DNA from: Roseivirga spongicola
Lineage (GTDB): Bacteria > Bacteroidota > Bacteroidia > Cytophagales > Cyclobacteriaceae
Length of the DNA stretch: 64,000 nucleotides
Assembly: GCF_001592965.1 (NCBI RefSeq)
Contig: NZ_LRPC01000001.1
Location: forward strand, 434,001 to 498,000
Direction: 5' to 3'
The notes beneath the pieces were generated by a model, which saw only the letters and a program-made list of their open reading frames with translations, made no database searches and was not told the origin of the DNA. The translations under genes were made by a program, and so were the position numbers. Numbering within the stretch: position 1 is the first letter of the stretch; every line of letters starts with the position of its first letter. Shown piece after piece: positions 5,612 to 38,484 of the stretch.

Positions 5612-6340
5612 ATGCCTGATGTAAAAGTATTTGTCGTAGAGGATGAGAAAATTCATGCTAAAATCACAAGGATTTCAGTCCAAAATGCTGGATATGAAGT
5701 GGTTGGAGAATGCGATAATGCTAATGAAGCACTAGACGCCATTGAAAAGGCAGCTCCTGATGTTGTTCTCATGGATATTTCCATTCCTGGAAAGATTAAT
5801 GGTATCGGTTTAGCGAAGTGCCTTTATGAGAAAAAAGGACCTCCGGTAATTTTCACCACTTCATTTACCGACCCAGAAGTAATTGAACAAGCAGCAGCAT
5901 CATTTCCAGCTTCATACTTAATTAAACCTATTCAACTAGATAATCTGAAAGCTGCTGTAGCACTTGCTTTAGCTAAGAAAACGCAAGCCGCCCCCCAAAG
6001 CAGCAGAGCACCACTCAACGGAAGGTCGGTATATATTAAGTCTGGAAACAAACTTCAGAAAGTACTCTTAAAGGACATTCTCTAGATAGAGGCCGCAGGA
6101 GACAATTACTGTAAAGTAGTTACCAAAACACATCAACTTATCTCTAGACATACGGTTAAGGGCATGGTAAAGGAGCTTAATTCCGACTACTTTATACAGA
6201 CTCACAGAGCTTACGTGGTAAACAGAGAGCGTATTGATAGTATTCATGAAAAAGAGCAGCTAGTAATAATTAATGGTTGTGAAGTTCCTATTGGAAGAAC
6301 TTATAAAGAAGAACTCTACAGTCAGATGAGGCGCTGTTAG
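5612..6340 (+). pseudogene. LytTR-family response regulator interrupted by in-frame TAG
   Basis: A receiver domain (residues about 1-125: acidic pocket VVEDE, phospho-acceptor in VVLMDISIPG, Thr/Ser in VIFTTSF, Lys in SYLIKPI) leads into a LytTR DNA-binding domain. At codon 158 (6083-6085) the frame hits TAG after LLKDIL. Reading on in the same frame gives an uninterrupted, typical LytTR remainder (IEAAGDNYCKVV, FIQTHRAYVVNRERID, VPIGRTYKEEL) to a TAG at 6338-6340. LytTR domains have Tyr or Trp at this position (the paralogue at 37717 has LEWIEADGN), so one substitution (TGG, TAT or TAC to TAG) explains the break. The intact length would be 242 aa. Either a recent nonsense allele, a sequencing error, or a site of readthrough; without readthrough only the receiver is made. 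Confidence 0.85.
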
Positions 6341-8746: not shown

Positions 8747-9124
8747 TTCATTTTGTATTTGCAATGCCGAGCTGATAAGCTCTTTAAGCTCATTTTCTAC
8801 AAATGGCTTTTCTAGATAGGCATGAGCCTCAGTAAGTTCGCAGGTTCTTTTTGTGGCAACATCGTCAGAAACTGACAGATAAATAATAGGTATGGAACAG
8901 TTGTTTTTTCTGAGCCATGTGGCAAAATCTACTCCCGACTCTACTCCATTGAGCTTAATATCTAAAATAACAAGGTCTAAACGCTGTCTCTCACAACACT
9001 CAACGGCCTGAGCATAACTAAAAACGGGAACCACACAATCGTGCCCCAAATCGTTAACTAGCCTCGAAATATCATCGGCAACAATTATCTCGTTTTCAAC
9101 AATGAGTACGGTTTTTCTATCCAA
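8741..9124 (-). CDS. Single-domain response regulator (receiver only)
   Basis: 127-aa receiver domain. Acidic pocket in LIVENE, phospho-acceptor in VILDIKLNG (about residue 56), Ser in IIYLSVS and the Lys-Pro pair in AYLEKPF are all present, so it should be phosphorylated. It has no effector domain. The KLNGVESGVDFA segment resembles the one in the LuxR-type regulator at the head of this operon (QLGGKKTGMDVA), suggesting that the receivers of the locus are related. It is preceded, 54 nt upstream, by the second copy of the 17-nt element. Likely partner: the TPR histidine kinase encoded immediately upstream. Confidence 0.9.
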   Translation of the reverse strand: MDRKTVLIVENEIIVADDISRLVNDLGHDCVVPVFSYAQAVECCERQRLDLVILDIKLNGVESGVDFATWLRKNNCSIPIIYLSVSDDVATKRTCELTEAHAYLEKPFVENELKELISSALQIQNEP

Positions 9125-9177
9125 AGGAAATGTTTAGTACACGATAAAAAACAAAGTAACCCGTGAAAACTCTTCCA

Positions 9178-9194
9178 GTAAATAGACCTTAAGG
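9178..9194. repeat. 17-nt direct repeat, copy 2
   Basis: GTAAATAGACCTTAAGG, identical to 8730-8746, in the 90-nt gap between the kinase gene and the receiver gene at 8741-9124 and 54 nt before that receiver's start. The equal distance to each receiver start argues for a function in expression. Confidence 0.6.
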
Positions 9195-9214
9195 ACTAAT
9201 TTCAGCTGAATCTA

Positions 9215-11257
9215 TTATGAGTTGATATATTGACTCTGATTGAAATAAATTTTGAAGACAGCACCAGCATCATAAGCATACTCATACCTTCCATGTATTT
9301 GAAGTGCCAGCCTGCTCACCAGCCACAACCCAGTACTTTTTGCTCTTTGTATATCGAAACCATCGGGTATGCCCGGCCCATTGTCTTTGACGGTTAGAAG
9401 CAAAGAATCTTCCATTCGAGACAAAGAGATTGTTAGCTGCAGCCCATTGGCAGAAGCATACTTGAAGCTATTCGTTATCAGCTCATTAGCAATAAGCCCC
9501 AAAGGCACCATGGTGTCTACATCTATCTCAATATCTGAATCGATAGCAAATTTGGCGTCAGAAGAAATATTCTCGAACGATCTCTGAATCTCTGCAAATA
9601 AATTCTGCAAATAGCTTAGTACCGAAACTTTAAGACTGTCTGTATTATAAAGCTGATTATGAATAAGCGCCATAGACTTTACCCTGCTTTTACCCTCGCT
9701 AATGAGGCTCTTAGTGTTAGGGTCGGTGGTTCCTTTGGCCTGTAGTTCTAGTAAGCTAGATAGAATTTGAAAGTTGTTTTTTACCCTGTGATGTATCTCC
9801 GTAAGCAGTAACTCTTTTTGTTTTAGCTCATCTGTTACTTCATTAGTTCTTATCTGAAGTAAGCCAGCCAGCCTTTTCTGTTTTTTGTAGTTGGTAAAAA
9901 TCAATACCGCAATAATGGCGACAGCCAACATAGAGATAATCAGAATGATTCTCGAACGCTTTTCTATCGAAGCTTCGTACTCATAACTTACTTTTAAAAG
10001 GTTCAGTCGTTCTTCGTTTTTCAGACTATCCGCAATCTGTTGCTTCTGAAACTCGTAGCTTAATTGTAACTCCTTTACTTTCTCTACATTTTCCTGACTA
10101 AACAAACTATCCTTTAAGTTCACATACTCATTTAAGTATTTATAAGCATTTCTAAAGTCTTGCTCGGCCCTATAGTGTTTTTGAAGGTGTGATGCCACGT
10201 ACATCTGATCACTCTTGCTTCCAATCTCCTTCCAAATATTAAAGGCTTTTTCAAAATAAATAATGGCCTTCTTATTATTGCCAGCCTTACTCCAGTATGC
10301 TGCTTGAGAAGAACTCACCAAACCCGTAAAATCCTTTTTATCAATCTCGGGTAAAAGCCTTTCTATTTGATCTAAGTAGTAACGCGTGCTATCCAAGATG
10401 CCCTCATCGCGATAGGTATCGGCCATGTGTTTGTATGAGTATGCCTTGCCATAAGCAAAGTTGGCCTCTTCTGCATAAGCAATGGCTTCTCTTAGTATAG
10501 ATTTCCTTCTTTCGAACGAGACGCAGCCCTGACACAAAGAGTATACGCTAGCAAGATTATTAGACCAAACATTGAGACGCCTTGCATTGCCCGATGGCTT
10601 GAGCATTTCTATTATCTGACTTATTTTCTCTGCACTTTTATCGTATTCTTCCAAAGAGTAAAGTGCAAAAGATTCCTTGTTCAGAATGTCTTGAACCATA
10701 GCCTGATTATCTTCCATTCTTTCGGCCAACATCCTTCCTTTATTCAGCTCTTGCAGAGACTGTGTATAGAGCGCCAAATGCGAATACATGGAAGAGAGCA
10801 ACAATCGGCCTTTGATGATGCCAACTGTATCGGCCTGTTGCTCGGCCAAAGCAACGGATCGTTCTGCGTAAATTCGAGTGCTGTCGTAATCGTTCTGAAG
10901 CTGCTTGGCATTGGCAATTTCATAGTTTGCCCTTGTCATTCCCAGCGTATCATTGGTCTGAGTGTAAATAGCCAAGGCCTTGGCATAATGCCGCTCCATT
11001 TCTACCCCGGTATAATCTGAACTTGCTCCAAGCTTAAGCTCCAATAGTGCTTCCTTCTTCAAATCGCCTTGTTGTTGAGCAATACTTAATTGTTCGGCAT
11101 AGAGCAGCTTTAAAGAATCTTGCGCTTTGGTTTGGTCTACTATGCTCTGCAGACTGTCCATTTTCTCAGCTAATCTATCTTGGCCGTTAGCCACAGATAC
11201 GTAAGCAAAACGTAAAAGACAAAAGAGAAAAAAGCCAATGGCGCGATGTGTTTTCAT
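9215..11257 (-). CDS. TPR-containing sensor histidine kinase (HisKA_2 type)
   Basis: About 680 aa. Signal peptide (residues about 1-26 from the chosen ATG), several tetratricopeptide repeats in the periplasm (to about residue 400), one membrane helix (RIILIISMLAVAIIAVLIF), then a HisKA_2 dimerisation box with EIHHRVKNNFQILSSLLELQ (His near 488) and a GHKL ATPase domain (NELITNSFKYA, DNGPGIPDG, STGLWLVSRL). An ATG at 11284 would give nine extra residues overlapping the regulator gene; the ATG at 11257 starts 1 nt after that stop and gives a clean signal peptide, so I prefer it. HisKA_2 kinases usually signal to receivers encoded next to them; three are present here. Signal unknown. Confidence 0.9.
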   Translation of the reverse strand: MKTHRAIGFFLFCLLRFAYVSVANGQDRLAEKMDSLQSIVDQTKAQDSLKLLYAEQLSIAQQQGDLKKEALLELKLGASSDYTGVEMERHYAKALAIYTQTNDTLGMTRANYEIANAKQLQNDYDSTRIYAERSVALAEQQADTVGIIKGRLLLSSMYSHLALYTQSLQELNKGRMLAERMEDNQAMVQDILNKESFALYSLEEYDKSAEKISQIIEMLKPSGNARRLNVWSNNLASVYSLCQGCVSFERRKSILREAIAYAEEANFAYGKAYSYKHMADTYRDEGILDSTRYYLDQIERLLPEIDKKDFTGLVSSSQAAYWSKAGNNKKAIIYFEKAFNIWKEIGSKSDQMYVASHLQKHYRAEQDFRNAYKYLNEYVNLKDSLFSQENVEKVKELQLSYEFQKQQIADSLKNEERLNLLKVSYEYEASIEKRSRIILIISMLAVAIIAVLIFTNYKKQKRLAGLLQIRTNEVTDELKQKELLLTEIHHRVKNNFQILSSLLELQAKGTTDPNTKSLISEGKSRVKSMALIHNQLYNTDSLKVSVLSYLQNLFAEIQRSFENISSDAKFAIDSDIEIDVDTMVPLGLIANELITNSFKYASANGLQLTISLSRMEDSLLLTVKDNGPGIPDGFDIQRAKSTGLWLVSRLALQIHGRYEYAYDAGAVFKIYFNQSQYINS

Positions 11258-11258
11258 T

Positions 11259-11870
11259 CTAATAAAAGGTGTGTTTATTTTCAATAGCCCATTTCAATAG
11301 AGAGTGTGTACCTTGAGGCAGATCTAATTTTACACAAATATTGTGTCGATGGTTTTTAACCGTACTCAGACTAATTGAGAGCCACTCAGCTATTTCTTTG
11401 GTAGTTTTATTATCGGCCACCAGCCTAAGCACAACTTTTTCCATCGGTGTAAGGTCTACCTTCTCTTCCTTTTCATAGCTAGCTCGCTTATTGGTATACC
11501 GAGAATGGTTGCTCAAGGCAATTGCCAATGTTGTCTGTACATCTGGAGCATTGAAGGGCTTTACCAAATAACCATAGGGCATGGTATCTTTGACCAACTC
11601 AAGTGTTTTTTGGTCTGAATGAGAAGAGAGATAAATAAAAGGCACATTTAGATGTTTTCTAATATACTCAGCTACGTCCATCCCAGTCTTTTTCCCACCT
11701 AGCTGAATATCTAGTATTACTATGTCTACTGACTCGGTCTGTAGTACCTCAATGGCCGAATAATAATCCAGAGCTGGCTCTAATACGTGGTAATTGAGCT
11801 CCTCCAAGGTAGCGCAAAGATCGTCTGCGATCAGAATCTCATTTTCAACAACAAGAACCTTGGTTTTCAT
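11259..11870 (-). CDS. Response regulator with LuxR-type HTH
   Basis: 203 aa: receiver domain (acidic pair in VVENE, phospho-acceptor in VILDIQLGG, Ser in FIYLSSH, Lys in GYLVKPF) and a C-terminal LuxR/NarL helix-turn-helix (LTPMEKVVLRLVADNKTTKE, then STVKNHRHNI). Typical NarL/FixJ-like transcription factor. It is the first gene of the minus-strand run and probably the output of the TPR kinase whose start follows its stop by 1 nt. Targets unknown; autoregulation of the operon is likely but not shown. Confidence 0.92.
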   Translation of the reverse strand: MKTKVLVVENEILIADDLCATLEELNYHVLEPALDYYSAIEVLQTESVDIVILDIQLGGKKTGMDVAEYIRKHLNVPFIYLSSHSDQKTLELVKDTMPYGYLVKPFNAPDVQTTLAIALSNHSRYTNKRASYEKEEKVDLTPMEKVVLRLVADNKTTKEIAEWLSISLSTVKNHRHNICVKLDLPQGTHSLLKWAIENKHTFY

Positions 11871-11953
11871 TAGTAGGAGCCTAGTATTTAGTCAGCAATC
11901 TTAAAAATGAATATACTCATAACGAAGGCTTTTTGCAGCCAACGGCAAAAAAT

Positions 11954-11981
11954 AAAAAAGCCTCTTCATTGCTGAAGAGGC
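11954..11981 (-). terminator. Intrinsic terminator of rho
   Basis: On the minus strand GCCTCTTCA, loop GCAA, TGAAGAGGC (11960-11981), then TTTTTTATTTTTT: a 9-bp perfect stem and a long U tract, 24 nt after the rho stop codon. A textbook factor-independent terminator behind the gene for the termination factor. Confidence 0.92.
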
Positions 11982-12004
11982 CTCTTGTATATAGTTAGTC
12001 AGTA

Positions 12005-13618
12005 TTAACCGTTCATAGAAACCAAGAACTCGTTGTTGTCTCTGGTTCCTTTCATTCTGTCTAGCAAGAATTCCATAGCCTCTACAGAGTTCATATCTGC
12101 CATAAACTTGCGTAGAATCCACACTCTCTGAAGTTCTTCTTTGCTCATTAGCAAATCTTCTCTTCTTGTTCCAGACGCAGGTACATCGATAGCAGGGTAA
12201 ACACGCTTGTTCGAAAGCTTTCTGTCTAACTGAAGCTCCATGTTACCCGTACCTTTGAATTCTTCAAAGATTACTTCGTCCATCTTAGAACCAGTTTCTA
12301 TAAGAGCAGTAGCAATGATTGAAAGTGATCCGCCATTTTCTACATTACGGGCAGCACCAAAGAAACGCTTTGGTTTGTGAAGAGCGTTGGCATCTACACC
12401 ACCAGAAAGAATTTTTCCAGAAGATGGCACTACAGTATTGTAAGCTCTGGCTAAACGAGTGATCGAGTCTAGAAGAATCACCACATCGTGACCACACTCT
12501 ACCATTCTCTTGGCTTTTTCTAACACAATGTTAGAAACCTTTACGTGACGCTCAGCTTGCTCATCGAAGGTCGATGAAATCACCTCGGCCTTCACACTTC
12601 TAGCCATGTCGGTAACTTCTTCTGGACGCTCATCAATCAAAAGAATGATCAGGTAACACTCAGGGTGGTTTTCAGCAATTGCATTTGCAATTTCTTTCAA
12701 AAGAACCGTTTTACCAGTCTTTGGCTGAGCCACAATCATACCTCTTTGTCCTTTACCAATTGGAGCAAACATGTCCAAAATTCTGGTAGACATCTGAGAT
12801 GGTCTTGTGCTAAGCTTCAATTTTTCTTCAGGGAAAAGTGGCGTTAAATATTCGAATGCCACTCTATCTCTAATTTCTTCGGTAGTCTTTCCGTTTACCG
12901 ATTCAACTCTTAATAGAGCAAAATATTTCTCTCCCTCTTTCGGAGGTCTGATCTGACCTTTTACAGTATCTCCAGTCTTTAAACCAAAAAGTTTGATCTG
13001 AGATGGAGAAACATAAATATCGTCAGGGCTAGCTAAGTAGTTATAGTCAGATGAGCGAAGGAAGCCGTAGCCATCTTGCATCATCTCCAAAACGCCTTCA
13101 TTTTCAATTAGGCCATCAAAATCTTTGATGTTTTGGTTGTACTCCTGCTTTTTATTTCTTCTGTTATCTTTTCTATTATTCTCAGGCTTCTCCGGCTTGT
13201 CACCGCTTTCCTGATTGTTATTGTCTTCTTTCTTAGCCTCTTTATTCGGGGCTTTAGACTTTTCAGGTTTTTCTTGTGGTGTGTTTTCGTTTGAAGAAGC
13301 GTCTGTACTTTCTGCAGAGTCAGTAACATTCTCTCTTCGAGGTCTTCTGGCAGACTTATTCTCTCTTGGAGCTCTTTTCTTTTCTTTCGACTCTCTTGCT
13401 TGAGGAGCTTCTTTCTTGGCTTCAGGAGCTTTTTCTTCAGTTTTTTCTGAATCGGCTTTCTTAGGTAGTTTCTCGTCTGGTGTAATGGCTTGCTGATCGA
13501 GGATAGCGTAGATGAGATCTTGCTTGTTCAGCTTTTTGAAGTTTTTTACACCAAGATTCTCAGCAATTTCCTTCAATTCTGAAAGAAGTCTGAGCTTCAG
13601 TTCTTCGATGTTATACAT
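12005..13618 (-). CDS. rho: Transcription termination factor Rho
   Basis: 537-aa hexameric RNA helicase that ends transcription. Seen: N-terminal Rho_N helices (residues about 1-45), a long low-complexity insertion rich in Lys, Glu, Asn and Pro (about 50-165), the cold-shock-like RNA-binding domain with [20 protein letters not shown], Walker A QPKTGKT (about 300), Walker [17 protein letters not shown] and the R/Q-loop region [13 protein letters not shown]. coli Rho is about 419 aa, so the extra length is the charged insertion, usual in Bacteroidota. A hairpin lies in the 5' leader at 13634-13659 and a strong terminator follows the gene. Confidence 0.97.
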
Positions 13619-30896: not shown

Positions 30897-33800
30897 ATGA
30901 AAAGACTACTCTTTTTTCTTCTAACCATTCTACCATTTAGCAGTATAGCCTTTCAGGCGAATCCACCTATTTACTCAGTTTATCTGATTGGAGATGCTGG
31001 TGAACCTTACGAAAACCCTGTGCTCACATTGCTCAAGAAAGAGCTAGATATGGCTGGAGAAAATGCAGCAGTCATTTTTTTGGGAGATAACATTTACCCT
31101 AAGGGAATGCCTCCGGAAGATCATCCGCTAAGGGCAGAAGCTGAATTAGCTATTGATGGCCAAATCAATGCTGTTAAAGACTTTGCCGGCAAAAAAGTGT
31201 TTATACCTGGCAACCACGACTGGGCTCAGGGAAGAAGCTATGGAGTAGACTGGCTGCGCAACCAAGAAGATTATGTAGAAAATGCTTTGAACAATCTTGA
31301 CGTATGGATTCCTACCAGAGGTTGTCCTGGGCCTGTTGAAATTGATCTTAACGAGAAAATCACCCTTGTTGTAATAGACACCCAGTGGTTTTTGCACAAA
31401 GGCAGAAAGCCAGAAGAAGGGAATAATTGCGGAGTAACTTCTTTGGTAGAAGTGGGAGCACTCTTGCAAGACATTCTAAAGAGAAATGCCCACAAAAAAG
31501 TGATAGTTAGCTCACACCACCCTATGTACACATATGGAATTCATGGAGGTGTTTTTGGGCTGAAAGATCATATTTTCCCACTTACGGCTTCAAAAAAGCT
31601 CAAGAACCTGTACATACCACTCCCGGTTATTGGCTCCATTTACCCGATGTACAGAAAGATCTTCGGAAACATTCAAGACAATACGCACCCCGTTTACAAG
31701 CAGTTCAGAGATGGCATGGTTCAATTAATGAAAACCCACCCTGACGTAATTCATACGGCAGGCCATGAGCATGCGCTAGAACATATAGAAAAAGAAGACA
31801 TGCACTTTGTTGTCAGTGGGTCTGGCGCCAAAAACAATGCCCATGTAAAGCAGAAAGGAGATGCTCTTTTTGCACAAAATACTATGGGCTACGGCAGGCT
31901 AGACTACTACAATGATGGAAAAGTAACCCTTACGTTTATCACTCCAGAAGGAGGCCAGGCGAAAGAGCTCTATTCAGCCGTTTTGTCTGAAAATCCGTTC
32001 CCCCCAAATCCGGAAGACCTGATTGCTAAATTCAACACTAACGAGTTTAAGGATAAAACCGTTGAATTTCCTGCATCACTCAAATACAACAATAAGAGCA
32101 ACCTCCACAAAAGCTTATTTGGAGCCAATTACCGAGAAGAATGGGCTGCAGAAGTAGAGCATCCAGTTTTTGACATTGGCTCTGTAAAAGGCGGACTCAA
32201 AATTTTGAAAAAAGGCGGAGGGCATCAAACCATTTCACTAAGGCTAGAAGCCGAAGATGGTAAGCAGTATGTTTTGAGATCTATAGACAAGAATCCAGCA
32301 CTCACACTTCCACCAAACCTGCGTAGAACATTTATTAAAGGCATTGTTCAAGATGGCATTTCATCTTCTCATCCTTACGCTCCCACTGTAATTCCTCCAT
32401 TGGCTGATGCTGCTGGAATTTACCACGCTAACCCTGAGATTTACTACATTCCAGACGATCCTCGATTTGGTATTTACAGAAAAGACTTTGCCAACACCTT
32501 GGCGCTGTTCGAAGAAAGAGCGAACAAAGAGCATATATCAGAGCCATTTTTTGGCGCTGGAGACGATGTTCATTCTAGCATTGAACTATATGAAAAGCTT
32601 CAAGACGATAATGATGAAAAGGTTGATGAGGCTTTTGTTGTCAGAAATCGCTTGTTCGATATGTGGTTAGGCGATTGGGATCGTCATGACGACCAGTGGA
32701 GATGGGTTGAGTTTGACCAAAAAGATGATAAAAAGCTCTACCGACCAATACCTAGAGACAGAGACGTAGCCTTTTTTGCTGGAGAAGGTGCTTTTAAAAA
32801 GCTCTCAGCATCTAAATGGGCGCAACCAGCCCTAAAAGGTTTCCATGACGAAATCAGTTACACTCCTTCTTATGGTTTCTACAGAATTCGTTGGTTCGAT
32901 AGGTACTTTATGACCGAACCAGACGAGGTTTCTTGGGTGCAACAAGCGAATGAGCTAAAAGCTGCCTTAACTGATGAAGTAATAGAGTCGGCCTTTAAAG
33001 TTTGGCCACAAGAAATCTATAACCTTTCAGGCGAAGAAATTATCCGCAAACTCAAGAACAGAAGGGATAATCTAGATACTTACGCTCGAGACTATTTCCG
33101 CTTTCTCTCTAAAACCGTGAACGTTCTTGGAAGCGATAAGCGTGAACGTTTTGTTGTAGAAAGACTAGATGATGAGCATACTAAGGTTACCATGTTCAAA
33201 ATCTCAGACAAGGGCAACCTTGAAAAGAAGTACGAGAGAACCTTCAAAACCTCCATCACTGAAGAAATAAGACTATACGGCTTCGATCAGGAAGATGAGT
33301 TTATTATCTCTGGCGATGTAAATGAAGGAATTGTTGTAAGAATAATTGGTGGTGGCGACAAAGACTTAATAAAAGACTCTAGTAATGTGCAAGGCGCTAA
33401 GAAACACACTATTGTTTACGACAAAACCAAGAGCACAACCATTGAAGCTGGCCTAGAAACCAAAGACAAGACATCTGACGATGATCCGGACATCAATCAG
33501 TATGATATGGAAGAGTTCGACTTTGATGTAACTATGCCACTTGTAAGCTTCAACTACAACCCCGATGATGGGATTTTCATTGGTGGTGGGTTTATGAGAA
33601 AGAATGATGGTTTTAGAAAAGAACCTTACGCCAGCAAACACAAAGTACTAGCCAATTATGCAGTGGCCACAAGCTCGTACAATCTGAGCTACGAAGCAGA
33701 GTTTGTAGACATATTAGGCAGAGCAAATCTACTTTTAGACTTGGATGTAAAAGCTCCAAACTTTGTAAACAACTTCTTTGGCTTAGGAAATGAAACAGAA

Positions 33801-34571
33801 TACAATAAAGATTTAGACCTTACCTATTACAGAACTCGCTACCAGTCTTACTTGATAAACCCTAGCCTGAGCTTCCCAGTGGGGGCCAGCGCCAATTTTG
33901 TAATTGGCGGCCGTGTGTGGGGAGTTGAAATTGAAGAAAACAATGACCGCTTTATTTCTGACTTCCCTAATAATGGTCTGAATCCGAATATCATAGAGGA
34001 GCACAGAACCTACGTTGGAGGAAACGTAGGCTTTCATTTTGAAACTAAAGACGATGAAATTTTCCCAAAAAGGGGAGTTACATTTAACACTGATGTTATC
34101 TATGACAATGGCATTGGAAACCTAGCTAAAAACAGTGCAAGATGGACTACTGACTTAACTTTTAGATGGGTGCTCGATGGTTTTGGCCGTACATCAATGG
34201 CTACCAGAGTAGGATACAATAAGTCTTTCGGTGATTACGAGTTTTATCAGGCCAGCAGATTAGATGGTTTCAATACTCTAAGGGGTTATAGAAGGTATAG
34301 ATTTGCGGGCGAGAGCAGTTTCTACCATCAAGTAGACCTAAGAGTAGACTTGTTTGAGTGGAGAAATTACTTCTTGCCAGCAAGAGTTGGCCTTATTCTA
34401 TTCAACGACATTGGCCGAGTTTGGGTAGATGGAGAAGACTCCAACAAACTGCACCATGGTTATGGTGGAGGCGTTTACCTCACCCCATTTGGGCAGTTTG
34501 CTGTGAACATTTTATTAGCCCGATCTGAAGAAAACTTCCTTCCGCTATTCAAGCTAGGCTTCTATTTCTAA
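30897..34571 (+). CDS. Metallophosphoesterase fused to Omp85/BamA-like outer-membrane barrel
   Basis: 1224 aa. Signal peptide, then a calcineurin-like phosphoesterase domain (about residues 25-360) with the metal-binding set YLIGDAGE, FLGDNIYP, IPGNHDW, SSHHPMYTYG and AGHEHALEH. A middle region (about 400-850) follows, with WLGDWDRHDDQWRW and YRPIPRDRDVAFF, a kinase-like-looking DRD/D set typical of these fusions. The C-terminal third (about 890-1224) is a 16-strand-like surface-antigen barrel with RGYRRYRFAGESSFYHQVDLR-type motif and a terminal Phe (LGFYF), so the protein should sit in the outer membrane. Role unknown; possibly surface phosphate or phospholipid metabolism. Confidence 0.85.
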   Translation: MKRLLFFLLTILPFSSIAFQANPPIYSVYLIGDAGEPYENPVLTLLKKELDMAGENAAVIFLGDNIYPKGMPPEDHPLRAEAELAIDGQINAVKDFAGKKVFIPGNHDWAQGRSYGVDWLRNQEDYVENALNNLDVWIPTRGCPGPVEIDLNEKITLVVIDTQWFLHKGRKPEEGNNCGVTSLVEVGALLQDILKRNAHKKVIVSSHHPMYTYGIHGGVFGLKDHIFPLTASKKLKNLYIPLPVIGSIYPMYRKIFGNIQDNTHPVYKQFRDGMVQLMKTHPDVIHTAGHEHALEHIEKEDMHFVVSGSGAKNNAHVKQKGDALFAQNTMGYGRLDYYNDGKVTLTFITPEGGQAKELYSAVLSENPFPPNPEDLIAKFNTNEFKDKTVEFPASLKYNNKSNLHKSLFGANYREEWAAEVEHPVFDIGSVKGGLKILKKGGGHQTISLRLEAEDGKQYVLRSIDKNPALTLPPNLRRTFIKGIVQDGISSSHPYAPTVIPPLADAAGIYHANPEIYYIPDDPRFGIYRKDFANTLALFEERANKEHISEPFFGAGDDVHSSIELYEKLQDDNDEKVDEAFVVRNRLFDMWLGDWDRHDDQWRWVEFDQKDDKKLYRPIPRDRDVAFFAGEGAFKKLSASKWAQPALKGFHDEISYTPSYGFYRIRWFDRYFMTEPDEVSWVQQANELKAALTDEVIESAFKVWPQEIYNLSGEEIIRKLKNRRDNLDTYARDYFRFLSKTVNVLGSDKRERFVVERLDDEHTKVTMFKISDKGNLEKKYERTFKTSITEEIRLYGFDQEDEFIISGDVNEGIVVRIIGGGDKDLIKDSSNVQGAKKHTIVYDKTKSTTIEAGLETKDKTSDDDPDINQYDMEEFDFDVTMPLVSFNYNPDDGIFIGGGFMRKNDGFRKEPYASKHKVLANYAVATSSYNLSYEAEFVDILGRANLLLDLDVKAPNFVNNFFGLGNETEYNKDLDLTYYRTRYQSYLINPSLSFPVGASANFVIGGRVWGVEIEENNDRFISDFPNNGLNPNIIEEHRTYVGGNVGFHFETKDDEIFPKRGVTFNTDVIYDNGIGNLAKNSARWTTDLTFRWVLDGFGRTSMATRVGYNKSFGDYEFYQASRLDGFNTLRGYRRYRFAGESSFYHQVDLRVDLFEWRNYFLPARVGLILFNDIGRVWVDGEDSNKLHHGYGGGVYLTPFGQFAVNILLARSEENFLPLFKLGFYF

Positions 34572-37500
34572 TTATACATTAGGAATATCTACATAAAAAG
34601 AGGTGCCTTTACCCACTTCCGAGCTGAAGGTAATGGTGCCTCCATGCATTTCTATGAACTGCTTTACAATAACTAAACCTAAGCCCGTGCCTTCTATATC
34701 ACCAACATTAGAGGCTCTGGAAAAAGATTCAAAAAGGTTCGGCTGATCCCTCTCTGGTATACCAATTCCGTAATCGTTTACCACAACAGAAATACCGTTA
34801 TCAGAAAACTTGAGTACTACATCTGGATCTTTCTTAGCTCCTGAGTACTTGAGCGCATTGCTTATTAGGTTAGAAATAGCGTGAGAAATTAACTGACTAT
34901 CCAAAAGTAGCTGGCGTTCCTTACCTTCTACGGTTAAACCAACTGATCGGTCTTTATACTGAACTTGGCACTCTTGAATTACCTGCTTTACTATACCTGT
35001 TAAAGACGTTATCTCTTTCTTTAGGTGAGTTTTTCCTACATCTAGACGCCCCAAGGTGAATACGTCTTTTAGCAATGAATTTAGGCGATCTAATTCAGTT
35101 CTGATTCTAGTTACGTGCTTAACAAGCTTATTATCTGGCATTTCTGGTCTGTTATCCAGATACATGCTGATAAGTTCGTTACTTGATTGTATGGTGGTCA
35201 ATGGTGTTCTGAACTCATGCGATGCCATTGAAATAAAGCTAGACTTAAGCTTATTAAGCTGTCGTTCTTTTTCAATAACCTTAACAATCTCACTAATATC
35301 TCTAGTTGAAGTAAGCACAAACTGTACTTTATTTTCTTGATTCATAACAGCGCTCATAGAAACACCTGCCCAGAAATACTCACCATCCTTCTTTTGAATT
35401 CGATACTGGGTCATCACATTGGTGCTCTTATTGGCAATGGTGTCTCTAAAAACTTCCAATGCACGCTTGCTGTCATCAGGATGAATGAACTCCTCCAGCG
35501 TCATTTCCATCTTTTCTTCTACAGAATACCCTTCTAGCCTTTCGCAAGAAGGTGAAACAAACGTATAAGAACCGTCTAGCTTATGAAGGCAAATTACATC
35601 GGCAGAGTTTTCGGACACCAGTTTATACTGTTCTTCCTTGGCACGAAGCTTCTCTTCAGTAATCTTCTTTTCGGTAATGTCAATTTTATTAGCCCTCCAG
35701 TAAATCGGCTTGTCTTCTTCATCGAAAATTAAGCCACCAGTAGCCTGAATCCATCTCCACTCGCCATTCTTATGCTTATACCTGAAGTAGCTTGTTTTCT
35801 CCTTGATTCTTTTCTCCAGACTCTCCGTAAAATCTTTTTCTATAGCAGAAACATCTTCGGGGTGTACAAACTCTAAGGCATTCCTACCCAGCATCTCCTC
35901 CACTTCATAGCCCATAGACTCTTTCACCGATGGGGTAACAAATAGATAGTTACCTTCTAAATCCATGAGCGTAACAATGTCGTTGGAGTTTTCAGTAATA
36001 AGCTTGTAGCGTTCTTCACTCTCTTTTAGCTTCTGCTGAGCCTCCACTCTATCCGTTACATTTCTTGTAGAAGTTTGTAAGAAAATGGCTTCTCCATTAT
36101 CGTCCAAAATAGCGCCACCCACAGTTTCTAACCACTCCAATTCGCCCTCTTTATTTTTAGCCTGAAAAGTAATGCTTACAGTTTTCAGCTTACCCTCAAT
36201 TACGCTAAGCATGGTATCCGAAACCTTGTACAAGTATTCAGGCGCAATAATCTCTCGCAACCTTAGCTTCTGAAGTTCCATTGGCGTATACCCCAATACT
36301 TCTTTTGAAGAAGGAGAGGCAAATACAAATCGGCCATTCAGCTCGTGCAAGCAGATACAATCACTCGAATTTTCTGAAATGAGCTTATACTTAGCTTCAC
36401 TTTCCCGAAGCTTTGTTTGTGCCTCCTTTAGGGTAGTTATGTTAGAGAGAGAACCTACAGCCCGTACTGGTTTATCTTCTTTTCCGTAAATAATTCCGGC
36501 TTTAAAAAGTGCCCAAATTATACGGTCGTTGGCAGCCGCTAATCTAAATTCTAAAGTGATTTTATCGCGTTTACTTTCAATAGCCTGCTGAAGAATAGAA
36601 ATGAACTCCTTCTTATCTACATCGTGCAAATATTTAGCTATTAGCAAGTCGTCTAAAGGATTTTCTTCAGGAGGAATACCCATTCCTTACCAAAATTGAG
36701 GGGAAAGATAGGATCGCTTCGTATTGAAGTCATACTCCCAAATGGCATCGTTGGTACCTTCTACAGCTAACTGATATCTTTCATTACTTTCTTGTAGCTG
36801 GCGCTCTAGATTCTTTCTATCCGTGACATCTTGCAGAATGGTGATAAAGCACTCCTGATTCTGAAAGTCGAGGGGCATACTTGAAGCACTTACCCAAAAA
36901 GACTCTCCTTTTTTGTTCTTTAAAACCAGCTCGTGACTTTGGATATGCCCATCGGTTTGGAGCCTGTCTATGTATGACTTTCTACCTTCAAAATTCTGGT
37001 AAAAGTGAATCACTTTTTTCCCCAGAAAGTCTACGGGAGACATTTCATATACCTTAAAAAGAACCTCATTGGCAAAAATTACTTTACCATCTTCTTTGGT
37101 GGAAATAAAAACAGGGTCAGGAAGAGCATCTACTATTGCCTTTAATCTCTGTTGGCTTAGCTCCAAATTTAATCGAGACCGCCTGATGTTATCAATATCT
37201 TCAGTTATGCCATCTAACCTAATGGGCTTATCGTCTTCATAGAGCACACTAATTCTATCTCTATAATATCTGTAAGTATCCTTTTTTCTTAGCGACTTGT
37301 AAGCATAACTAGCTTTGCCCGAACTCAGTGCATTAACTACCTCTTCAAGCACTCTTTCTCTATCGTCTGGGTGAATTCTCTGTTGCCACTCTTCCATGGT
37401 TTTAGGAAGAGGGTCTAAGTCTTCTGGATTACCAAATCGAGCAATTGGATTATTATGATATAAAATTTCGTAAGGTTCACTAGTCAAATCAATTGACCAT

Positions 37501-37601
37501 ACAACCTCGGTAAGATTATCTACCACAGAGCGTAATTGGACCGTCCTATTTTTGACATCCAGTAAATCGTCTGTAGCACCTTTTAAAATGTTTTCCATCA
37601 C
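34572..37601 (-). pseudogene. Multi-PAS sensor histidine kinase interrupted by in-frame TAA
   Basis: Two frames, 36687-37601 and 34572-36683, are in the same phase and separated only by TAA (36687-36689) and a Gly codon. Joined they give about 1008 aa: six PAS domains (the stop falls inside the third, between SPQFW and GMGIPPEENP), HisKA with SMASHEFRTPLTTIQ (His about 794) and HATPase (SNLISNALKYSG, DYGIGIPERD, GTGLGLVIVK). Only one codon is wrong and the halves complement each other within one PAS fold, so this is a recent nonsense allele (AAA, CAA or GAA to TAA), an error, or readthrough. An ATG two codons past the stop could restart a 703-aa kinase lacking the first 2.5 PAS domains. Divergent from an intact LytTR regulator. 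Confidence 0.85.
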
Positions 37602-37716
37602 CTGAGAGCGTAAGAAGCGTGTTTTTTGGATAATTTTAAGATACTATTTTAGTAGTTTTCCGCCAATTAACCTCATTTTTTAGCATATTCACCTAAATGA
37701 CCAAAGCAGATTAGCC

Positions 37717-38484
37717 ATGGACAACGACTATCAAAACAGCCCTAAAATATTAATTGTTGAAGATGAGCCTTTCATAGCAGAAAATCTTCAAGAAATGTTA
37801 GGCATTTTCGGCTATGAAAATACAGAGATAGCCAACTCTGCCAACCAGGCTATTAAAGCCATAAAAGCTTCCAGACCGGACCTTATACTGTTAGACGTAA
37901 AGATAAAAGGAGACCAAGATGGAATTGAGCTAGGCGGCATTATTAAAGAGCAGTACAAAGTACCGTTTGTGTACATCACCTCTTATTCAGACAAAGACAC
38001 TGTTAATAGAGCTAAGCAAACTCAGCCTTTAGGCTTTATAGTTAAGCCTTTTACAAAAGATGATGTATATGCGGCTATTGAAGTAGCGCTATTTAATAAG
38101 AACAGACAGGCAGTAATTTCTGGAGAAAGACTACCAGAAAACAACCCTACCACCTACAACAACGACTCTATCTTTATTAAGAAGAAGAGCATGTTGGAGA
38201 AAGTGAAATACAGTGATCTTGAGTGGATTGAAGCAGATGGTAACCACATTACCATTCATGCCAGTGATGGCCGTGATTTTACTATTAGAAAATCTCTTAA
38301 AGAGATTACGGACAGACTGCCAAAAGATAGATTCTTGAGGGTTCACAAATCATTTGTAGTATTAGTAGATTCGGTAACAGCCATAGACACCAACTTTGTT
38401 TATCTAGGCCAAAAGAAAATTCCGATAGGAAGGTCTTACTACAATGCCTTTACAGCAACTCTAAATACAATTAGCGCTAGCTAA
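37717..38484 (+). CDS. LytTR-family response regulator
   Basis: 255 aa. The receiver (residues about 10-125) has the acidic pair in LIVEDEP, phospho-acceptor in LILLDVKIKG, Thr in VYITSYS and Lys-Pro in FIVKPF. The LytTR domain (about 150-250) has LEWIEADGNHITIH, FLRVHKSFVVLVDSV and KIPIGRSYYNAF. It is divergent from the broken multi-PAS kinase, its probable partner, with 115 nt between them. It is the intact paralogue of the interrupted regulator at 5612. The 3' end abuts the convergent lipoprotein gene without a gap. Confidence 0.93.
   Translation: MDNDYQNSPKILIVEDEPFIAENLQEMLGIFGYENTEIANSANQAIKAIKASRPDLILLDVKIKGDQDGIELGGIIKEQYKVPFVYITSYSDKDTVNRAKQTQPLGFIVKPFTKDDVYAAIEVALFNKNRQAVISGERLPENNPTTYNNDSIFIKKKSMLEKVKYSDLEWIEADGNHITIHASDGRDFTIRKSLKEITDRLPKDRFLRVHKSFVVLVDSVTAIDTNFVYLGQKKIPIGRSYYNAFTATLNTISAS

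Follow-up and report, generated by a model that had tools for sequence, protein, structure and literature searches.

The locus considered here raises the question of what becomes of a multi-domain sensor histidine kinase gene of Roseivirga spongicola that is interrupted by an in-frame stop codon in the middle of one of its PAS domains: is it simply a broken gene, a pair of genes, or a gene whose catalytic half may still be made from a start codon immediately behind the stop? The window, i.e. the whole stretch of 64,000 nucleotides that was analysed, is part of contig 1 of the 4.48-Mb genome. The analysis confirms the break in the kinase and finds a restart plausible; until expression is measured, we regard the case as an ordinary one.

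Structure of the interrupted gene

On the minus strand the codons TGG (36692-36690), TAA (36689-36687), GGA (36686-36684) and ATG (36683-36681) follow one another in a single frame. This reading bears out the first-pass annotation, which had described two halves of the same phase with only TAA and one glycine codon between them, and an ATG two codons behind the stop. The TAA splits the kinase, whose full-length protein is not encoded by one open frame; if it is read as X, the frame comprises 1,007 residues in addition to the stop, and over its full length it can be aligned with the 1,008-aa protein of Roseivirga thermotolerans (NZ_BNAG01000001.1; genome G018), the nearest named relative found. 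The ATG at 37598 is the first in-frame ATG, and a similar beginning (MEN, MQN or MDN) is found in all 17 gene copies; a GTG at 37601 offers an alternative start of the N-terminal frame (36687-37601, 304 aa). The features of the locus are as follows:

36687-37598, minus strand: N-terminal open frame, 303 aa from the ATG at 37598, closing at the in-frame TAA
36687-36689, minus strand: in-frame TAA within the third PAS domain (PAS3), a column with a sense codon in 16 of 16 orthologues
36681-36683, minus strand: candidate restart ATG, 3 nt past the stop, second codon behind the TAA
34572-36683, minus strand: C-terminal open frame, 703 aa
37717-38484, plus strand: intact response regulator with receiver and LytTR domains, divergent neighbour of the kinase in all 17 loci, that of R. 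spongicola among them

The same divergent arrangement of a HisKA-type PAS kinase and a LytTR regulator (34572-38484 in the window) is seen in every one of these 17 loci, and by its position the regulator is the likely partner of the kinase. LytTR regulators usually have another kinase type as their partner. A second kinase match and a LytTR-regulator-like match also lie side by side on contig 28 of R. spongicola (340575-342248).

Domain architecture of the kinase

Pfam recognizes PAS domains in two places of the N-terminal frame, and four PAS_3 stretches followed by HisKA and HATPase_c in the C-terminal frame. All of the following lie on the minus strand:

about 37206-37409, minus strand: PAS1 (Pfam, N-terminal frame)
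about 36819-37121, minus strand: PAS2 (Pfam, N-terminal frame)
about 36690-36794, minus strand: front of PAS3 (N-terminal frame)
36399-36683, minus strand: back of PAS3 (Pfam, C-terminal frame)
about 36045-36374, minus strand: PAS4 (Pfam, C-terminal frame)
about 35697-35945, minus strand: PAS5 (Pfam, C-terminal frame)
about 35289-35594, minus strand: PAS6 (Pfam, C-terminal frame)
about 35040-35246, minus strand: HisKA (Pfam; residues 480-548 of the C half)
about 34581-34901, minus strand: HATPase_c (Pfam; residues 595-701 of the C half)

When the R. thermotolerans orthologue was submitted to Pfam in six slices, every slice gave a PAS match, and HisKA and HATPase_c were found behind them; PAS sensor domains ahead of these two modules are the architecture of a PAS-domain HisKA histidine kinase. 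The break falls inside the third PAS domain. Residues 2-77 of the C half, the back of PAS3, still match positions 13-87 of the PAS_3 profile, and the solved PAS domain 3mr0 aligns across the stop (E 1.7e-14); the 44-aa front piece on its own gave no Pfam match. We take the stop to lie past the second strand of the PAS fold, near the beginning of the first helix. The Pfam slices, together with the 16 open orthologues described below, support the original proposal of six PAS domains, one of them split, in a single ancestral gene. In the C half, SHEFRTPLT can be read as the H-box, and DYGIGIP and GTGLGL as the glycine-rich motifs that bind ATP. As no membrane segment is evident in the kinase (highest 19-residue Kyte-Doolittle mean 1.07), it is probably cytosolic.

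Conservation of the open frame in the genus

The genus was represented by 19 genomes, one per species, namely R. spongicola and 18 others. An orthologue of the kinase is present in 16 of these 18; the remaining two (G009 and G013, 80 and 84% complete) gave weaker matches only and no orthologue. Fifteen orthologues are complete frames of 1,006-1,015 aa, and the sixteenth, in genome G011, is open up to its contig end. The TAA column is occupied by a sense codon in all 16, specifying four different residues, so that the column itself is variable. The column of the candidate restart methionine is ATG in 11 of the 16 and another codon in five. A sample of 196 genomes of the family, with up to 11 candidates scored per genome, gave matches at E<=1e-40 in at least six, every one of them a member of this genus and one of them R. 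spongicola; among the matches listed, the short frame occurs only in R. spongicola.

The alignment of orthologues, which had been proposed as a check, thus finds the frame open across the site in every copy. As this column is open in 16 of 16 orthologues, the stop is, on the comparison of sequences, more than a chance feature, and the same count marks it as a putative lineage-specific nonsense substitution, not a conserved split; the change is apparently a substitution of a single base. We consider a nonsense substitution in an ancestral single gene very probable.

The opposite reading, under which the kinase is encoded as two stable genes, had been named at the outset as the finding that would overturn the claim of a split gene. 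It was looked for: no orthologue in the genus is split (0/16), no split common to several lineages was found, a stable two-gene split as a conserved arrangement is ruled out by this count, and the claim stands. In its narrower form this reading holds that the split is kept in R. spongicola and that both products are used, perhaps re-associating via the divided PAS3. The short gap between the frames would suit translational coupling, and both halves retain conserved columns about as well as the intact relatives do (see below), although a recent stop accounts equally well for that conservation. With the lack of split orthologues and with a break that lies within the PAS fold and not at a domain boundary, two stable genes seem to us decidedly unlikely.

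That the frame remains open past the stop might also suggest programmed readthrough or recoding. However, no orthologue (0/16) has a stop at this site, and TAA is the commonest stop (162 of 303 long frames sampled), which indicates that it is not reassigned. Readthrough or a code change is thus unlikely, and for programmed readthrough or recoding of this TAA we see hardly any chance at all.

Constraint on the two halves and age of the stop

A rival reading of the stop is a plain null allele: translation would cease at the TAA, no useful kinase half would be made, and the gene would be a young pseudogene. No further stop or frameshift was seen in the kinase gene. Dating by synonymous change was tried and rejected: synonymous sites are saturated between R. 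spongicola and both nearest relatives, and for this reason only lineage counts were used and no date is given. Lineage-specific amino-acid changes in the N half number 11 in R. spongicola, 11 in G011 and 24 in R. thermotolerans, and over the opening 195 residues of the C half the corresponding counts are 17, 10 and 21; purely synonymous codon changes, in the same order of genomes, number 46, 49 and 47 in the N half and 24, 28 and 23 in the C part. Fisher tests found no significant excess of amino-acid change in the N half (p 1.0 against G011) or in the C part (p 0.24 against G011, 0.66 against R. thermotolerans). At conserved columns, defined as those in which at least 12 of 14 outgroups agree, R. 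spongicola deviates at 17 of 308 in the C half (R. thermotolerans at 23 of 308) and at 8 of 152 in the N half (R. thermotolerans 7, G011 10).

Three R. spongicola changes fall at columns invariant in the 14 outgroups, at residue 240 of the N half and residues 71 and 123 of the C half; in G011 two such changes lie in the N half and the C part is free of them, and R. thermotolerans has none. The two at otherwise invariant columns of the C half favour the null allele. The PAS4 stretch has seven changes in R. spongicola, one in G011 and seven in R. thermotolerans, and the excess of the C part over G011 (17 vs 10; PAS4 7 vs 1), though non-significant overall, would fit relaxed constraint. Against the null allele, the C half shows no additional lesion, and its changes are not significantly in excess. 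In terms of what marks a nonsense pseudogene, intact relatives and a stop confined to this genome were found; relaxed constraint and further lesions were not. Judged from these counts, the gene is compatible with a recent event. Given no significant excess in either half, the stop is probably recent, or else both halves are still translated and useful.

Frequency of gene breaks in the two genomes

To place the stop against a background, 1.26 Mb of R. spongicola contig 1 (bases 1-1260000 without 518001-520000) was compared with 1.28 Mb of contig 1 of R. thermotolerans. The counts leave out frames shorter than 120 aa, matches with less than 50% identity, and any stop that falls within the first 25 residues or the last 12. 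The comparison covered 572 of 997 R. thermotolerans frames (about 219,000 codons) and listed five internal stops in R. spongicola, of which two are genuine, namely those in the six-PAS kinase and in a second regulator (window 6083-6085). Three were dropped: two share a frame that runs antisense to a frame of 1023 aa, and the third sits in poorly aligned sequence upstream of where the gene probably starts. In the reverse direction 574 of 984 frames were compared, and of three R. thermotolerans stops listed one is genuine, the other two lying ahead of starts. Of two frameshift-like cases, one, in R. spongicola, is genuine and the other is an artefact of a start region. The broken genes seen besides the kinase are:

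window 5612-6340, plus strand: receiver-LytTR-like regulator with TAG at 6083-6085 (Trp in R. thermotolerans), its DNA-binding part lost
R. thermotolerans kinase locus (L002) 8806-12519, minus strand: copy of the 1224-aa kinase-adjacent gene, with in-frame TAG at 12127-12129
R. spongicola contig 1, about 829860 (within 820001-840000): TonB-receptor-like gene with a frameshift, 516-aa and 175-aa frames against one 723-aa frame in R. thermotolerans

The cut regulator has no other stop up to 6340, and no ATG, GTG or TTG occurs in the ten codons behind its TAG; close relatives are found in 5 of the 18 other genus genomes (54-61% identity in the front part, frames of 239-244 codons). The kinase-adjacent gene, which by look has a metallophosphatase-like front and an outer-membrane-like back, is open in the window (30897-34571); it occurs in 17 genus genomes, and no stop was seen in the 16 besides R. 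thermotolerans (in G011, the last part only). The TonB-receptor-like label is likewise by look.

With 2 of 572 genes cut by a stop here and 1 of 574 in R. thermotolerans, gene breaks of this kind occur normally in these genomes, at a low level, and that a second regulator in the window is likewise cut by a stop again favours the null allele. The presence of both genuine stops of R. spongicola within a single window of 64 kb is a post hoc observation.

These counts also bear on whether the stop is an error of the assembly consensus, or a change that the isolate picked up in culture before it was sequenced. In favour of either, the change concerns one base in one genome, and the sole two genuine stops among the 572 compared genes lie 30.6 kb apart in the same window. 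An error is opposed by the quality of the assembly (99.98% complete, 0.07% contaminated, 33 contigs) and by the tally of two genuine stops and one frameshift in about 219,000 codons, which is unlike a poor consensus. Substitution errors are rare in a deep short-read consensus, if this assembly is one. We regard error or culture mutation as improbable.

Sequence context of the candidate restart codon

The short distance from the stop to the ATG at 36683 suggests termination-reinitiation as a way in which the C half could be made, and we scored this ATG with a context matrix built from 203 other starts, the site itself left out. This score replaces one for which the matrix had been trained on the site as well, and which had placed the ATG at the 98th percentile of internal ATGs. 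Only 82 of 2094 in-frame internal ATGs score as high or higher; among the 203 real starts, a fraction of 0.40 do not exceed it. Taken separately, the score of positions -20 to -7 is reached by 215 and that of -6 to -1 by 257 of the 2094 internal ATGs. The letters of the stop occupy positions -6 to -4, so that the TAA itself supplies part of the score, and the sequences of the orthologues at the restart column (16, 11 with ATG) reach 0.61 at best, against 1.81 for R. spongicola.

Starts in this genome are A-rich upstream. Shine-Dalgarno-like motifs are not enriched at them (12 of 204 starts vs 156 of 2094 internal ATGs), and the AAGGA beside ATG 36683 therefore counts for nothing; the ribosomes of this phylum are described as making no use of Shine-Dalgarno pairing (PMC9976891). 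An A at -3 is a positive start determinant in Flavobacterium johnsoniae, according to the available part of another report (PMC6847099); position -3 of ATG 36683 is G, not the favoured A. RNA folding at the junction is unremarkable, 552 of 969 windows folding no more strongly. The co-directed neighbours that are spaced by -30 to 60 nt form 132 pairs; a 3-nt gap occurs in five, one of which is this site by the logic of the script, and overlaps of 4 nt (19) and 1 nt (14) are commoner. In E. coli reporters, as given in the accessible portion of PMC10666635, a 2-nt gap cost three gene pairs only 5, 20 and 70% of their reinitiation, and a 38-nt gap cost two of them 80-90% and abolished it in the third.

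The idea that translation could restart here thus fares unevenly: the 3-nt gap and the good start context speak for it, and the inherited methionine codon and the G at -3 against it. The same points weigh on the null allele in reverse, which is countered by the very short stop-start gap and the good context, and favoured by the G and by a restart ATG that is the inherited methionine codon (ATG in 11 of 16 orthologues), such that nothing shows evolution for restarting. An in-frame ATG within the next two codons is available at 36 of the 1006 codon positions of the kinase gene, a scarcity that is suggestive, though the measure was chosen after the fact. From its sequence context, restart at 36683 is a plausible candidate event; once a nonsense substitution in an ancestral single gene is granted, we hold the chances of appreciable restart to be evenly balanced, while the plain null allele is a serious contender whose chances fall somewhat short of even.

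A proposed history and its implications

The explanation that we favour, and think probable on the whole, is one ancestral kinase gene with a TAA in PAS3, whose downstream product, if made, arises by reinitiation. Of the lineages compared, this one alone would have gained the TAA within PAS3 of an ancestral one-piece gene for a six-PAS HisKA histidine kinase. Translation up to the stop would yield a PAS1-PAS2 fragment that lacks the kinase. Any product of the downstream frame would best be explained by termination-reinitiation at the ATG 3 nt past the stop; it would retain PAS4-6 and the HisKA/HATPase_c core, would lack PAS1-2 and have PAS3 only in part, and would probably be less abundant. 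We regard this as an ordinary gene break, probably a recent one, although the ATG directly after the TAA may still allow the catalytic half of the protein to be produced.

If the downstream kinase is made by reinitiation, the locus would show, in a natural setting, a nonsense substitution by which a protein loses sensor domains but keeps its kinase; if there is no reinitiation, the kinase is one of two stop-cut genes among 572 compared in R. spongicola. A more far-reaching version is that the stop is tolerated on account of the ATG within two codons, which would turn the gene into a coupled pair of a PAS1-PAS2 fragment and a PAS4-6 kinase, with its input altered or the PAS3 halves re-associating, and a two-component system rewired by one substitution. 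This we offer as speculation with little chance of being right.

Comparison with known systems

A literature search found no histidine kinase that is reinitiated behind a premature stop, and none that has an internal start; the accessible text of a Roseivirga paper (PMC10746172) contains nothing on this kinase gene. Among the closest parallels are termination-reinitiation pairs, which in the available portions of PMC10666635 and PMC6728339 have a stop and a start within a few nucleotides on the same strand, as here with 3 nt; the former includes premature stops placed 2 nt ahead of a start in E. coli. Those pairs, as far as these portions of the two papers go, are two real genes, whereas the present case is one cut gene, described from its sequence alone.

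Compared with the six-PAS HisKA kinase of R. thermotolerans, the R. spongicola gene has the same domain order and the same divergent LytTR response regulator, with identity at 258 of 303 aligned residues in the N half and 545 of 704 in the C half; the R. thermotolerans kinase is open through the site, whereas the R. spongicola copy has a TAA in PAS3. Recent nonsense pseudogenes of bacteria are generally recognized by one stop in an otherwise intact, conserved frame, and this gene resembles them in that respect; unlike them, it has an in-frame ATG with a good start context 3 nt behind the stop.
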